64,000 nucleotides of DNA from Polaromonas sp. Lineage in GTDB: Bacteria > Pseudomonadota > Gammaproteobacteria > Burkholderiales > Burkholderiaceae_C. Below the pieces are notes generated by a model that saw only the letters and a list, made by a program, of their open reading frames with translations, was not told where the DNA came from and did no database searches. Below are positions 30,343 to 34,811 of the stretch, piece by piece. The first letter of the stretch is position 1. Each line of letters begins with the position of its first letter. Position numbers and translations under genes: made by a program. The stretch lies in assembly GCF_010365105.1 (NCBI RefSeq), contig NZ_JAAFGZ010000015.1, forward strand, positions 1 through 64,000. Direction: 5' to 3'.

Positions 30343-30490
30343 TGGCCGGATGAGGGGTTTTTAGCGCTACGCGGCAAGCATTCTTTTACGAGGTGCGGGT
30401 ACAACAACCTGTTAGATATAGCAGGGGTTGATGCGTGACTATTTGTGAGAAAGTTTTCAATAAGTCTGTTTTTAACAAAGGAACAGTCTT

Positions 30491-31738
30491 ATGCAAGTAC
30501 TCGATCGCACCACCCGTCCCGGCCCTGTCACTCACCGCAACCCACCCCTGTTGCCGCGCCTTCAAGAACGCTTTGAACAAAAATTCATGGCCCACTGGGA
30601 AAGCCAGTGGGGGGGGAAACCCATCCTGCATGGCAGCAACCCCGGACCCAACTCGATCCGGCTCGATGGCAATGACTACCTGGGCATTGCAGGCCATCCG
30701 GACATCGTCCGGGCGCAGATTGCCAGCCTGCAGCACAACAACGAAAGCGTGATCCAGTCGGGCGTTTTCCTGCTCGACGCCCATCCGTGCCGGACCCTTG
30801 AAGCGTCGCTGGCGGCCTGGGTCGGCAAGGAAGACGGTTTCGTCTGCCAGTCGGGCTATTCGGCCAACGTCGGCCTGCTGCAGGCGATTGCCGACGAGCA
30901 GACACCGGTTTACCTCGACAGCCTGGCGCATACCTCGCTCTGGGAGGGCGCGCGTGCGGCACGTGCGCCGGCGCATGCGTTTCGCCACAACGACCCGGAG
31001 CACCTGTCGCGCATGATCGAGCGCCATGGGCCGGGCGTGGTGGTCGTCGACTCGGTGTACAGCACCACCGGCGCGCTGTGCCCGCTGGTCCGCATGGTCG
31101 AGGTGGTCGAGCAGCATGGCTGCACCATCCTGGTCGATGAGTCGCATTCGCTGGGGACCCACGGCCCGCAGGGCGCGGGGCTGTGCGCCGAACTGGGCTT
31201 GACGGACCGCGTGCATTTCATCACCGCCAGCCTGGCCAAGGCGTTTGCCGGCCGCGCCGGTTTTTTCACCATTCCGGCCGCCATGCGCTATTACGTGCTG
31301 CACAACAGCTACCCGAACATCTTCAGCTCCTGCCTGTTGCCGCACGAGATCGCCGGCCTGGCGGCGACGCTGGAGGTGGTGCGCGGCTGCAACGCCGAGC
31401 GGGTGCGGCTGCATGCCAACACGCGCCGGCTGCGCGCCAGCCTGTCAAGCATGGGCTACCCGATCCACCAGGGCAGCCAGCAGATCATTGCGCTGGAAAC
31501 CGGTACCGAGCCGGCCACCATGGTGCTGCGCGACCAACTGGAGGCGCACCAGCTTTTCGGCGCGATTTTCTGCGCCCCGGCCACCAGCCGCAACCGCGCC
31601 ATGGTGCGGCTGACGCTCAACGCCGGCCTGACCGAAGCCGAGATGGAACGCATCGAGCAGACGGCGCGCACGCTGCTGCCGGTGCTCAAGCCCTGGGACT
31701 GGCCAATTGCCCGGCGCGCCCGCACCGAACAGGTATGA
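30491..31738 (+). CDS. cqsA: Alpha-hydroxyketone quorum-sensing autoinducer synthase (CqsA/LqsA/JqsA family)
   Basis: A 415-residue PLP enzyme of the alpha-oxoamine synthase fold. It matches Vibrio cholerae CqsA in segments absent from KBL or BioF: 'AHTSLWEGARAARAPAHAFRHND', 'RHGPGVVVVDSVYSTTGALCPL', 'LVDESHSLGTHGPQGAGL' and 'VHFITASLAKAFAGRAG', where Lys250 should bind PLP. These enzymes condense an acyl-CoA with an amino compound to make aminoketones that become CAI-1 or LAI-1-type signals. AAGGAA precedes the ATG. It is tail to tail, two bases apart, with a regulator and a CqsS-like kinase, so signal synthesis and sensing are linked here. The acyl chain used cannot be predicted. Confidence 0.93.
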   Translation: MQVLDRTTRPGPVTHRNPPLLPRLQERFEQKFMAHWESQWGGKPILHGSNPGPNSIRLDGNDYLGIAGHPDIVRAQIASLQHNNESVIQSGVFLLDAHPCRTLEASLAAWVGKEDGFVCQSGYSANVGLLQAIADEQTPVYLDSLAHTSLWEGARAARAPAHAFRHNDPEHLSRMIERHGPGVVVVDSVYSTTGALCPLVRMVEVVEQHGCTILVDESHSLGTHGPQGAGLCAELGLTDRVHFITASLAKAFAGRAGFFTIPAAMRYYVLHNSYPNIFSSCLLPHEIAGLAATLEVVRGCNAERVRLHANTRRLRASLSSMGYPIHQGSQQIIALETGTEPATMVLRDQLEAHQLFGAIFCAPATSRNRAMVRLTLNAGLTEAEMERIEQTARTLLPVLKPWDWPIARRARTEQV

Positions 31739-31740
31739 CG

Positions 31741-32730
31741 CTAATCTTCCGGCAAGCGCCTTTCGCCATGGTTGGCCTGGAAACGCGCGTAGCTGGTGCT
31801 CAAGCCCGGGCTGAATGGCTCGCCGATGGCAAAAAGGGCCGCGTGAAGCCGGCCGGCTTCGCCGGTCACAACGAACGCTTCGCAAGGCGCCGACTGATGG
31901 CCGTCGCCCAGCGCCAGCTGCAATTCCAGGTCAATCAGCCTGCGGCCGCTGCGAATGTCCTGAACGACGCTCGCATCCCAGCCCTGCGACAGGGCCATCT
32001 CGGCAAGTTCACCCAGGTTGCCGGCAGGCTCCAGCTGCAGCCAGCTGGCCTGGCCTTGGGCGTTGAGCGCCAGCATGCCAAACGGTGCGCCAATGACGAC
32101 ATGTTCGGTCCAGCCCTGCCGCTGCGTAACATTTTGCAATGCCTGGAAAATTACCGGGTCGGCCAGCAGCGCCAGCTGGTCTGGCGACAGCGTGGCGCAC
32201 CAGATCTGCTGGTAGCGCTGGTCGGCCTGATGGCGCAGGTCCTCGACGGCGCGCGTCAGGCAGGCGCGCAGGTCCGGCGACTGCTTGGGAATGAACTGGT
32301 TGATCAGCCCCCGGTTGAAAGCCGAAACCGCCAGCTGCTCGTCAGCGCGGCCGGTGAGCAGGATGCGTGAACCCGGCCAGTCCTGCAACTCGCCCAGCAC
32401 CCGCAGGCCGCTCATGGCCGGCATGGCGTAGTCCACCACGGCAACCTGCACCAGCCCGAAGCGCCCGGCCCCGTCGACCTGCCAGTAGTGCAGGATTTGC
32501 GGGATCAGCAGGGCGCCTTCGCGCCAGCGGCGGATGATTTCCTGCTGCAGCCAGGCGTCGTTTTCGCGCTGCGCGCTGTCTTGCTTGAGCAGGTCAATGC
32601 AGGCGATGGGCCGCAGGAACAGCTGAACGTGCCATTCGGGCGGCATGACCTCGCCCAGCATTTCCAGGTAATCGGGGTCATCGTCGAGAAAAACAACGCC
32701 GCCGGGCCGGCGATAAAGGGGAAAAGACAT
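31741..32730 (-). CDS. Response regulator with extended receiver, LqsR/JqsR-like by context
   Basis: A 329-residue regulator. 'GVVFLDDDPDYLEML' gives the acidic pair, 'VAVVDYAMPAMSGLRVL' the phospho-acceptor (Asp100), 'ILLTGRADEQLA' the switch Thr and 'FIPKQS' the Lys. Asp100 is about 40 residues later than usual, because residues ~45-85 form an insert. The C-terminal ~190 residues match no DNA-binding domain I know; they include 'GAPFGMLALNAQGQASWLQLEP', which looks PAS-like. ATG 32730 (MSFPLYRRPG) is the likely start. The kinase gene is 47 bp upstream on the same strand. LqsR of Legionella and JqsR of Janthinobacterium have the same genomic setting, but orthology is not proven. Confidence 0.85.
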   Translation of the reverse strand: MSFPLYRRPGGVVFLDDDPDYLEMLGEVMPPEWHVQLFLRPIACIDLLKQDSAQRENDAWLQQEIIRRWREGALLIPQILHYWQVDGAGRFGLVQVAVVDYAMPAMSGLRVLGELQDWPGSRILLTGRADEQLAVSAFNRGLINQFIPKQSPDLRACLTRAVEDLRHQADQRYQQIWCATLSPDQLALLADPVIFQALQNVTQRQGWTEHVVIGAPFGMLALNAQGQASWLQLEPAGNLGELAEMALSQGWDASVVQDIRSGRRLIDLELQLALGDGHQSAPCEAFVVTGEAGRLHAALFAIGEPFSPGLSTSYARFQANHGERRLPED

Positions 32731-32777
32731 GGTGCTGGGCTTTGTCAAGGAAATTGAAATGCAGGCATCGGCAGCGT

Positions 32778-34115
32778 TCAGGCCGGCGCGAGCGGCAGCT
32801 CCAGCGTGAAGACAGCGCCGATGGCGTAACCTGACTTCACCTGGATGCGGCCCCCTGCGCTGCGCACCACCTGCTGGCAAAAAGCCAGGCCCAGGCCATG
32901 CCCGGTGCTGCGGTTGCTGGAGAAAAAGGGCTTGAAAATATGCGCCAGCAAGGCCGGATCGACACCAACGCCGTCATCTGCCACGGCAATGCGCCCGCCG
33001 TTGGCTCCGCAGTCAACCGTGATGCGCAGCGCACCGGCGGCATATGCCGAATCGGCGGCGGCCAGGGAATGCAGGGCGTTTTTCATCAGGTTCATCAGCA
33101 CCTGGGAGAACTGCGCCGGAGAGCCGCAAAAGCTGAAGTCATGGTGGATGTCCACCCTGACGCACTCGCGCTGGCGGCTGGAGCTGTAGGGATAGGCCGC
33201 GACGGTTTCGCTGACCAGGCCGGCAGCGCCGATGGCTTCGCTGTAGTGCGGCAGCTGCAGCAGCTTGGCATTGGCAATCTGGGTGTCGATCTGGTGGTTC
33301 ATGGCGCGTACCAGGGTCTGCAGGCGCTGTCCCAGCTGCTCGAGCTTGGCGGCGCGAGGATGCGCCTGCTCGCGCCGGATTTCCATTTGCAGCGCGTCCC
33401 CGATCAGCGATGCCGTGGACAGCGGCGTGCGCAGCTCGTGCGCCATGATGCCCATGGTGGCCAGCGTGTGCGCCAGCTGGTCGCGCCGCAGGTTGGCCGA
33501 CGACAGGCCGAGCAGCAGCGCGCAGGTCCAGCTGAAGGCGATGACCACCGCATCGACGGGGTTGGCCTGCAGGCCGTTCGGCATCAGCCAGGCAAACAGC
33601 GCCCACGACAGCAGGGCACCACTCACGGTGCCTGCCGTGGCGATGCGCCAGTCGGTCAGTTGGTAGTAGCACACCATCATCGTGCAGATGGTGGCCAGCC
33701 AGGCGCCGCTGCCGGCATTGCAAAAGTACATCCAGCTGAAAAAAAGCGGAATTTCGATCCACAGGACCAGCGTGATGAGCCGCTGCGTGGCAGGCTTGGA
33801 AAAATCCCGGCTCAGCCCGGGCAGCAGCAGCGTGGCGGCCAGCAGGCCCATCAGGCCGCGCAGCCACAGGTTTTCGTAGGGCTGCACCAGCCAGCGTGAC
33901 CAGATCCAGCCGAACACGGGCTGGCCCAGCATCGCTACCAGGCCCAGAAGCCGCATGCGCCACGGCGATGCATGCAAAATCGGCTCCAGCGGCGCGAGTG
34001 TCCCGCGACCTGGTGCATGCTTTAAAAATTGTGAGGTGCGGCGAATTTTGTTCCATCTGGCGTTCGGCCAGAGCCTGCGTATCGACCCATAAACTTCTCT
34101 GGCCCTTTGGATCAT
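32778..34115 (-). CDS. CqsS/LqsS/JqsS-like membrane sensor histidine kinase
   Basis: A 445-residue kinase whose membrane part resembles CqsS, the CAI-1 receptor: 'MRLLGLVAMLGQPVFGWIW' and 'QPYENLWLRGLMGLL' match the first helices of V. cholerae CqsS, and six hydrophobic segments run to about residue 205. The kinase core has 'MGIMAHELRTPLS' (His226), 'NLMKNALHSL', 'VADDGVGVDP' and 'GHGLGLAFCQQVV'. The C-terminal receiver of CqsS is absent; the separate regulator downstream probably replaces it. The start is uncertain: ATG 34115 lies only 27 bp from the divergent LuxR gene, while TTG 33977, with GGAG six bases before it, gives 399 residues closer to the CqsS N-terminus. Confidence 0.88.
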   Translation of the reverse strand: MIQRAREVYGSIRRLWPNARWNKIRRTSQFLKHAPGRGTLAPLEPILHASPWRMRLLGLVAMLGQPVFGWIWSRWLVQPYENLWLRGLMGLLAATLLLPGLSRDFSKPATQRLITLVLWIEIPLFFSWMYFCNAGSGAWLATICTMMVCYYQLTDWRIATAGTVSGALLSWALFAWLMPNGLQANPVDAVVIAFSWTCALLLGLSSANLRRDQLAHTLATMGIMAHELRTPLSTASLIGDALQMEIRREQAHPRAAKLEQLGQRLQTLVRAMNHQIDTQIANAKLLQLPHYSEAIGAAGLVSETVAAYPYSSSRQRECVRVDIHHDFSFCGSPAQFSQVLMNLMKNALHSLAAADSAYAAGALRITVDCGANGGRIAVADDGVGVDPALLAHIFKPFFSSNRSTGHGLGLAFCQQVVRSAGGRIQVKSGYAIGAVFTLELPLAPA

Positions 34116-34142
34116 TGTCTCTGTTCTTCCCCTTTATCACCG

Positions 34143-34811
34143 ATGCAACTACCTGCTAACTTTGACAGCATCTGCCTGGACGGCATCATGAGCGACTGGC
34201 TGTCGTCCCTGCGTGAAAACTCGGTCGAGGCGCTGGTGGTGCTGGGTCCCGACCCGTTCGCAGGACAGGAGTGCCGGCTGGTGCTGGCCGTGCATCCGCC
34301 GCGTCTGGTCGAAGCGGCGCAGGCGCTGGCGGCCAGCCAGGACTTCGGCGCGCCCTGGCGCGACTCCGATGCGCCGCTGGTGGCCTGGCAGGACATTTCC
34401 CGGTCGGCTTTCGGGGACACGGGCCAGTGGCGCAGGTTGTGGCTGGCGCATGGCTTTCAGAGTGTCGTGCGCATCGCCTTTCCGCTGACCGTGGGCCGCG
34501 CGTTCGAATGCTACCTGTTCAGCGCGCGCCAGTGGCCTGACCGCAGCGAGCCGTCGCAGCTGGCCTGGTCGGCGCTGAACATCTGGCCGCTGCTCAAGCG
34601 CGCGCTGGCCCAGGCGCGCAACCCGCTGAGCCCGCGTGAACTGGAATGCCTGGAAATGGCGTTCCAGGGCATGACCGCGCGCAAGACCGGCGAGATGCTG
34701 GTGTGCAGCGAACGCACCGTCAACTTTCACCTGGCCAACGCCATGGGCAAGCTCAAGGTGGACAACAAGCTGGCGGCGGTGCAGCGCGCCTGCTGGTTCG
34801 GCCTGATCTGA
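34143..34811 (+). CDS. LuxR-type helix-turn-helix regulator next to the quorum-sensing locus
   Basis: A 222-residue protein. The C-terminal ~65 residues are a LuxR DNA-binding domain ('LSPRELECLEMAFQGMTARKTGEMLVCSERTVNFHLANAM' in two blocks). The N-terminal ~155 residues lack the receiver acidic pair and, as far as I can see, the acyl-homoserine-lactone pocket signature; 'FPLTVGRAFECYLFSARQWPD' suggests a GAF/autoinducer-like sheet but is not diagnostic. ATG 34143 is the first in-frame start giving a sensible N-terminus. It is divergent from the CqsS-like kinase and could be its transcriptional output or an independent signal sensor. Confidence 0.82.
   Translation: MQLPANFDSICLDGIMSDWLSSLRENSVEALVVLGPDPFAGQECRLVLAVHPPRLVEAAQALAASQDFGAPWRDSDAPLVAWQDISRSAFGDTGQWRRLWLAHGFQSVVRIAFPLTVGRAFECYLFSARQWPDRSEPSQLAWSALNIWPLLKRALAQARNPLSPRELECLEMAFQGMTARKTGEMLVCSERTVNFHLANAMGKLKVDNKLAAVQRACWFGLI

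Follow-up and report, generated by a model that had tools for sequence, protein, structure and literature searches.

The described systems closest to the locus reported here are the alpha-hydroxyketone quorum-sensing circuits Lqs of Legionella pneumophila (LqsA, LqsR and LqsS), Jqs of Janthinobacterium (JqsA, JqsS and JqsR) and Cqs of Vibrio (CqsA and CqsS); CqsS is a hybrid kinase. Our locus lies in a 64,000-nt stretch of a Polaromonas sp. genome (contig NZ_JAAFGZ010000015.1, positions 1 to 64,000; hereafter the window), where four genes spanning 30491-34811 are arranged in the order A(+) R(-) S(-) X(+) and encode an autoinducer synthase (A), an LqsR-family response regulator (R), a histidine kinase (S) and a LuxR-type regulator (X). 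It is an Lqs/Jqs-type circuit with a conserved LuxR-type gene added and with clear candidate operators. Lqs-like clusters of Polaromonas, Ralstonia eutropha and Burkholderia xenovorans had been reported by 2012 (PMC3376566), Jqs followed in 2013 (PMC3566124), and in 2023 it was described how LqsR has spread and become decoupled in betaproteobacteria (PMC10653808); statements on published systems refer throughout to excerpts of the articles cited.

With Lqs, the Polaromonas locus shares the synthase family, the fold of the LqsR-type regulator and a kinase separate from the receiver (PMC3376566), and differs in gene order, in its conserved LuxR-type gene and lux-box-like sites, and in the lack of hdeD. 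The likeness to Jqs resides in a synthase, a kinase and an LqsR-type regulator gathered in one betaproteobacterial locus (PMC3566124, PMC5080296). No LuxR-type gene is mentioned for the lqs locus or for the jqs cluster in the excerpts on these systems. The excerpts on Legionella LvbR, considered as a possible parallel, do not name the protein family to which it belongs. The synthase family (CqsA, 3hqt) and the kinase type are also common to Cqs, which differs by its phosphorelay via LuxU/LuxO and by having no LqsR homologue in the cluster (PMC3376566, PMC3566124). The first-pass annotation of the window had presented the receiver-less kinase and the unusual receiver and unknown output of R as departures from the known systems. 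Neither sets the locus apart: LqsS is likewise separate from a receiver (PMC3376566), and the traits ascribed to R are the known condition of LqsR (PMC3376566, PMC10653808), whose fold R matches. A kinase without receiver and a regulator such as R are normal for Lqs/Jqs circuits, and the conserved LuxR gene is the real difference.

X resembles LuxI/LuxR systems in its fold and helix-turn-helix (HTH) domain, and its candidate box has the form of a lux box, a ~20-bp palindrome CCTGT-N8-ACAGG as in ACCTGTAGGATCGTACAGGT (PMC4444344), as well as the promoter-near position. The locus differs from those systems in that no LuxI scored above cut-off in the 34 genomes bearing X, and in that X has no sequence match to PF03472. 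PhcX of Ralstonia, like R, is an LqsR-type regulator that has outlived its synthase and kinase (PMC10653808), but it sits by the phc genes, whereas a surviving R mostly keeps its LuxR-type partner; the word LuxR has zero occurrences in the main text of that article. The nearest published case is that of LuxR-family regulators acting on a Vibrio parahaemolyticus circuit (PMC8276238), where RobA and others carry a LuxR-type HTH without a recognised autoinducer domain and stand in or below a circuit including CqsA; in contrast with our locus, the excerpts of that article mention neither an LqsR-type regulator nor a lux box, nor any link with a cqs locus. A LuxR-type gene linked to a CqsA or LqsA locus was found in none of the literature titles and abstract starts searched (most subscription papers fall outside that search), and a review of LuxR solos (PMC10134790) contains no occurrence of CqsA, hydroxyketone or Polaromonas.

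The alpha-hydroxyketone character of the locus, already proposed by the first-pass annotation, was borne out by the synthase. A scored 590.9 bits against the alpha-hydroxyketone autoinducer synthase model NF005526 (cut-off 428) and 222 bits against the BioF model (cut-off 426), and its best solved structure was CqsA (3hqt, E-value 2e-104), the next family following at 5e-39. Model scores and structure ranking, with CqsA and not BioF, KBL, SPT or ALAS as the nearest relative, rule out an assignment of A to BioF, KBL or ALAS. R matched LqsR (6sy9) by sequence (E 1.7e-23) and, as a model with a predicted local distance difference test score (pLDDT) of 94.9, by structure (E 9e-21, template modelling (TM) scores 0.74/0.79 over 346 alignment columns), the next match lying at 2e-6; the shared fold includes the output domain. 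No DNA-binding domain was found in R. Residues D16, D17, D100, T126 and K149, which we take to be the acidic pair, the phospho-Asp, the Thr and the Lys of the receiver site, are invariant in 36 of 36 rows of an alignment (A2), six of which come from loci lacking A and S. This alignment does not comprise the R genes of L160-L166 nor those of two loci discussed below (L167 and L168), which deviate at the receiver site. The LqsR-type output domain resembles a degenerate GGDEF domain for which no cyclase activity was found (PMC10653808). In S, HATPase_c exceeded its cut-off and HisKA fell just below (24.9 versus 26.9 bits), while the domain search returned no match to a receiver domain. Six transmembrane helices are expected of an LqsS/CqsS-type kinase; a crude scan of hydropathy yielded four segments in S, of which two overlap. 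Most relatives align with S only from about residue 40. Together with the kinases of other A-R-S clusters, relatives of S make up one family.

The start of X is most probably ATG 34143 and not TTG 34107, since most relatives align from the motif MxxPVNFDS. Its GerE domain scored 57.6 bits (cut-off 23.5), whereas Autoind_bind (PF03472) gave no match at E up to 1; a scan against PHROGs likewise matched the HTH only, and with hhalign only the HTH of X could be aligned with five LuxR proteins. The AlphaFold model of X (pLDDT 91.6), on the other hand, matched QscR, RhlR and SdiA over the full length, with TM scores of 0.47-0.53 for most (QscR: E 5e-9, TM 0.52, root-mean-square deviation 7.4). The earlier description of X as devoid of an obvious acyl-homoserine lactone (AHL) pocket thus holds at the level of sequence, but the fold is that of AHL-type LuxR receptors. 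A partnership of X with a LuxI encoded elsewhere in the genome was ruled out: PF00765 exceeded its cut-off in 0 of 34 X-bearing genomes, with sub-threshold matches in four and none in the Polaromonas genome of the window; the two positive controls, G132 and G035, did contain it.

We then compared the locus across 299 genomes of the family, of which 31 have a synthase above cut-off and 34 a full-length relative of X (E ≤1e-50; X-bearing genomes). The synthase stands in the same locus as X in 28 of these 34, at a distance of 2.4-2.7 kb in the 27 measured loci, and the order A(+) R(-) S(-) X(+) recurs in 27 family genomes besides the window. It is also complete in 69 of 80 named loci, including Polaromonas, Ramlibacter, Hydrogenophaga and Caenimonas; these are the best 80 of 165, chosen by X and hence uninformative on how frequently X is absent, and at least seven come from genomes that are also in the family set. 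Among the 11 remaining named loci, two are cut at contig ends (L139, L156), as probably is L158, and L124 looks broken by assembly; none of these was used as a loss. The recurrence of the same order in the 27 family genomes and 69 named loci argues that the four-gene locus is not a chance assembly. Tail-to-tail A and R and a divergent X, both described by the first-pass annotation, are features of relatives too. Neither of the outcomes that this annotation had named as refuting it, a synthase grouping with KBL/BioF or a LuxR gene not conserved beside the locus in relatives, came about: X accompanies 28 of the 31 synthases, the others being in G009 (89% complete), G093 (55% complete) and G129. 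The lux-box-like sites, the retention of R together with X and the lack of LuxI are not mentioned in that annotation. Named relatives closest to X (25 sequences, identity 73-94%) comprise 24 from Polaromonas and one Burkholderiales metagenome-assembled genome, and the named relatives agree with the suggested Comamonadaceae variant. Within 250 genomes drawn from the order, full-length X occurred in two, both of the family of the window, and the other 35 with X matches had the C-terminal part only.

In 85 of 88 X-bearing loci, the 160 bp before the aligned start of A contain a palindrome, CCTGTCAN4TGACAGG, with no more than two mismatches (63 perfect, 13 with one and nine with two mismatches). 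Conversely, the best upstream match in 12 synthase loci without X had at least four mismatches (0/12 at ≤3). These counts omit the window, duplicates (L085, L105, L106, L132, L144, L145 and L157), a sub-stretch (L079) and two contig-edge loci (L059 and L130). For each X-bearing locus with ≤2 mismatches, mononucleotide shuffling of the 260-bp upstream region equalled the observed match no more than once in 200 trials, duplicate genomes being included in this test. The left end of the box maps 61-113 bp before the A start (median 83), and 38-40 nt separate its centre from a -10-like TTCAAT in 80 of 82 promoters with this hexamer (82 of 86 with a box, the window being added for this count). In the genome of the window (G000; 4.5 Mb, 68 contigs), the relaxed pattern CCTGYYAN4TRRCAGG has a single site, exactly at 30408-30425 before A; the same pattern is absent from 19 of 20 genomes without X and has one site in the other (G024). 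A CCTGCTA half-site is present in each of the two boxes of the window and, at one or both boxes, in close relatives; the specificity of X may have shifted in this clade. A by-eye comparison of the recognition helix of X with box variants gave no consistent rule of co-variation. The Janthinobacterium JAI motif was ruled out as the operator: Jqs targets carry TTGAN6/7TCAA, a motif that occurs within 300 bp of A in three of the 88 X-bearing loci and in one of the 12 without X.

The same palindrome recurs inside X. Codons 4-9, specifying PVNFDS, are written CCT GTC AAC TTT GAC AGT in many relatives. Among 107 distinct X genes, 105 have CCT for Pro4, as opposed to 2-22% at eight other conserved Pro columns; TTT encodes Phe7 in 100 of 101, as opposed to 2-47% at five other Phe columns, and Asp8 is GAC in 104 of 104 (L047, L051 and L068 are outside this count). 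CCT and TTT are near-fixed here although they are not preferred codons, so that DNA, not protein alone, seems to be constrained at this place. In the motif search within X, 7 of 108 genes were set aside for a misfitting start, and the final base of the site does not enter into the mismatch counts. A YATTGT hexamer precedes the X start by 23-40 nt in 93 of 106 genes; the internal box is thus downstream of this hexamer and ahead of the divergent S-R unit. It is poorly kept in genomes of one genus (g70; L044-L046).

A search of 76 genomes, namely the 34 bearing X and 42 that lack a close X (34 of them having no X and no strong R, as defined below, and eight having other combinations), extended the box beyond the locus. 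Leaving aside the boxes of the locus itself (upstream of A and within X) and those next to R in two genomes (G272 and G162), 29 perfect boxes were scored in 15 of the 34 X-bearing genomes, whereas the 42 genomes without a close X had none. In 28 of the 29 stretches (L187-L215) the distal box lies outside called genes, as judged from simple, codon-based gene calls; uncalled stretches of >1 kb around the box in L187, L189, L203 and L204 could hide genes. None of the 29 stretches contains a LuxR-type HTH gene. Several kinds of gene recur in the vicinity: ShlB-type exporters (by Pfam in G105, G047 and G042, by gene order in G164), GH5 glycosidases (G099, G200), phosphonate-type binding proteins (G164, G200), R-body genes at ~0.5 kb (G047 and G164, the latter with RebB by Pfam), and a gap that adjoins an M16-type peptidase gene and has an RsmD-like gene nearby (G134, G097, G198 and G272, recognised by protein starts, with Pfam support for G134 only). 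G272 has lost A and S and kept R and X. One-mismatch boxes in genomes without X lent modest support to LuxR-type proteins as readers of the box: in two of five such stretches (L216-L220), an unrelated luxR-type gene ends 10 bp (G076) or 265 bp (G013) before it.

R shares the locus with X in 34 of 34 X-bearing family genomes. Six of these (L041-L046) have no A and S in the locus and no synthase above cut-off in the genome, and retain R and X adjoining and divergent; four named loci (L094, L112, L114 and L149) have R, S and X without A. A perfect box persists 17-151 bp past the 3' end of R in five of these ten loci (L041, L043, L112, L114 and L149), which suggests that A was lost rather than gained later; no perfect box stands beside R in L042, L044, L045, L046 and L094, the site of the last having two mismatches. 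The persisting boxes may still work where they are. Partial distance correlations were highest for R-X (0.653), followed by R-S (0.625), S-X (0.541), A-S (0.413), A-R (0.348) and A-X (0.213), as computed from 22 loci with CoaX as a control and without a significance test. A strong R (E ≤1e-117) is present in 40 of the 299 genomes, comprising all 34 with X and six without a close X. Four of the latter have R without A, S or X in the stretches read (G070 contig C11, G254, G176 and G243), G070 having a second, distant R-X tandem elsewhere (L047); in the other two (G009 and G112) R stands with S. G254 also has a second R elsewhere (L162). In genus g71 (L160, L161 and L163), R is found without A, S and X, and a gene that by eye looks like an amidase separates it from CoaX.

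LuxR genes also stand beside LqsR-family genes outside the canonical locus, in the G070 tandem and in G132, G035 and G305 (see below), which favours action of R through X. In two Ramlibacter loci (L107:3780-9907 and L109:3813-9912) and partly in a third (L117), R and X are kept, and the place of A and S is taken by a perfect box and by genes for a haem-oxygenase-like enzyme (PF14518), for a membrane hybrid kinase of the CqsS kind that has two receivers and an Hpt domain, and for a receiver-kinase protein. This cluster looks like another signalling input, perhaps with a novel synthase. A hybrid kinase 41-43% identical to the Ramlibacter type starts ~1 kb from a perfect box in G200 (contig C9, ~70984; L221/L204), a genome that also has a full A-R-S-X locus. 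In two further loci (L167:7676-10687 in G132 and L168:7109-10136 in G035), an LqsR-family gene directly follows a LuxI-type AHL synthase gene, with a luxR gene on the other strand, and R has lost receiver residues, in L167 including the phospho-Asp. Tail-to-tail A and R with S upstream of R is an order also seen in other families (for example L170 and L172). In another family (f8), locus L171:7657-12199 of G305 has A divergent from a kinase-LqsR-LuxR operon, whose LuxR matches Autoind_bind (32.3 bits, cut-off 23) and has an N-terminal domain that cannot be aligned with that of X; because of this difference, a LuxR gene may have joined the A-R-S cluster more than once.

Table 1. Genes and candidate regulatory sites of the A-R-S-X locus (positions in the window)
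Feature	Position	Strand	Evidence or remark
A, CqsA/LqsA/JqsA-type alpha-hydroxyketone autoinducer synthase	30491..31738	+	NF005526; CqsA in PDB
R, LqsR-family response regulator	31741..32730	-	6sy9 by sequence and fold; alignment A2
S, LqsS/CqsS-like histidine kinase without receiver	32778..34115	-	start uncertain: 34115 or further in
X, LuxR-type regulator (GerE HTH, LuxR-receptor fold)	34143..34811	+	domain search, conservation, AlphaFold model
Lux-box-like palindrome upstream of A, CCTGTTAGATATAGCAGG	30408..30425	.	3 mismatches to CCTGTCAN4TGACAGG
-10-like hexamer TTCAAT, putative synthase promoter	30456..30461	+	promoter function inferred
-10-like hexamer CATTGT, putative X promoter	34113..34118	+	promoter function inferred
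Second lux-box-like site, X codons 4-9 (PANFDS), CCTGCTAACTTTGACAGC	34152..34169	.	codon comparison

The genes and their folds, the boxes and their conservation, and the co-retention of R and X can be read from the sequences themselves, and they outline the following circuit. A would make an alpha-hydroxyketone-type signal, its putative product by homology, which S, again judging from its relatives, would sense and relay by controlling the phosphorylation of R. R would most likely govern X, in the way that PqsE binds RhlR; the titles of PDB entries with PqsE bound to RhlR illustrate that another protein can bind a LuxR receptor. X would bind the palindrome before A and activate the synthase gene, generating positive feedback, as the fixed spacing between the box and the -10-like hexamer suggests, and would bind the second copy over its own first codons to repress itself and perhaps control the divergent S-R unit, self-repression being suggested by the position of this box downstream of the YATTGT promoter hexamer. 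R-X would thus constitute an output module and A-S an exchangeable input, with ShlB-type exporters, GH5 glycosidases, R-body genes and others as further box-marked targets in relatives. We hold it very probable that X binds the lux-box-like sites, and probable that X is the box-reading output of the circuit. The proposed signs of regulation, that is, activation of A and repression of X, seem somewhat likelier to be right than wrong, and the chances that R acts through X are about even.

X could instead be a cytoplasmic receptor in its own right: its LuxR-type N-terminal domain would bind the alpha-hydroxyketone, or some other small molecule, and X would act on the boxes with no need of R, which would form a parallel branch with S. 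This alternative, like the next, overlaps in part with the main reading. This is compatible with the fold of X, which is that of ligand-binding LuxR receptors, with the candidate X box in the synthase promoter and with the existence of LuxR proteins with non-AHL ligands (PMC10134790); the lack of a LuxI above cut-off in all 34 X-bearing genomes makes a home-made LuxI-type AHL an unlikely ligand, if X has one. However, X is kept without A in six family genomes and in the Ramlibacter-type loci L107, L109 and L117, always with R adjoining, and the A-X correlation is the lowest of all pairs, so that we consider this explanation unlikely, though worth keeping in view. A second proposal is that X only fine-tunes the locus through feedback on A and on itself, the output of the pathway passing through R by another route, as in Legionella. 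LqsR-family regulators do act in lineages with no reported LuxR partner (PMC10653808), six of 40 R-bearing family genomes have no close X, the relaxed box occurs only before A in the genome of the window, and 19 of the 34 X-bearing genomes have no distal perfect box; the distal perfect boxes of the remaining 15, nearly all outside called genes and some of them preceding genes of like kind from one genome to another, speak against so restricted a role, which we judge improbable. That the LuxR gene is an unrelated neighbour would fit the synteny of the block Rhod-A-R-S-X-CoaX across much of the group, which by itself would keep neighbours together. The box upstream of A nevertheless goes with X and recurs inside it, and R and X remain neighbours in loci that no longer have A and S; given locus conservation and the box-X association, we think a chance neighbourhood very improbable indeed.

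Several observations nonetheless weigh against X as the box-reading output that R controls. Concerning the boxes, three X-bearing loci (L052, L072 and L060) have no recognisable box before A, and the two boxes of the window have three mismatches each; when 5000 random stretches of 160 bp were taken from the window, 74 scored as well as the degenerate site at 30408-30425, which taken alone would be unconvincing. The association of box and X may be due in part to common descent: nine of the 12 synthase loci without X are from other families and three from the family of the window (L048, L049 and L050), and therefore descent and X are not fully separated. The 42 genomes without a close X contain one-mismatch boxes too, at 28 sites, and three of the five such stretches examined in genomes without X have no LuxR-type HTH gene. 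Codons are near-fixed at other columns of X as well (Phe126 TTC 98%, Asn208 AAC 98%, Asp207 GAC 94%), but these are the ones X genes prefer, whereas CCT and TTT are not. As for the partners, the R-X correlation exceeds that of R-S only slightly (0.653 versus 0.625 in 22 loci), and the six of 40 genomes with R and no close X point to other roles of R or to a loose link. A LuxR-type HTH is absent, in the stretches read, from eight of nine A-R-S clusters of other families (L170, L172 and L176-L181, some on short contigs). X may also bind a small molecule itself.

A conserved LuxR-type partner with defined candidate operators makes the action of LqsR-type regulators after phosphorylation directly testable, and in harmless bacteria. 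We tentatively propose, as a rather less than even prospect, that LqsR-family regulators act by controlling a LuxR-type factor and that R-X of Comamonadaceae is a portable lux-box-reading module fed by different inputs (A-S, the Ramlibacter cluster, or a LuxI-type synthase with another LuxR), so that alpha-hydroxyketone and AHL quorum sensing would share one promoter code. If true, this would join two classes of quorum sensing that are usually kept apart, and would provide a promoter site from which the regulons of such circuits could be predicted.

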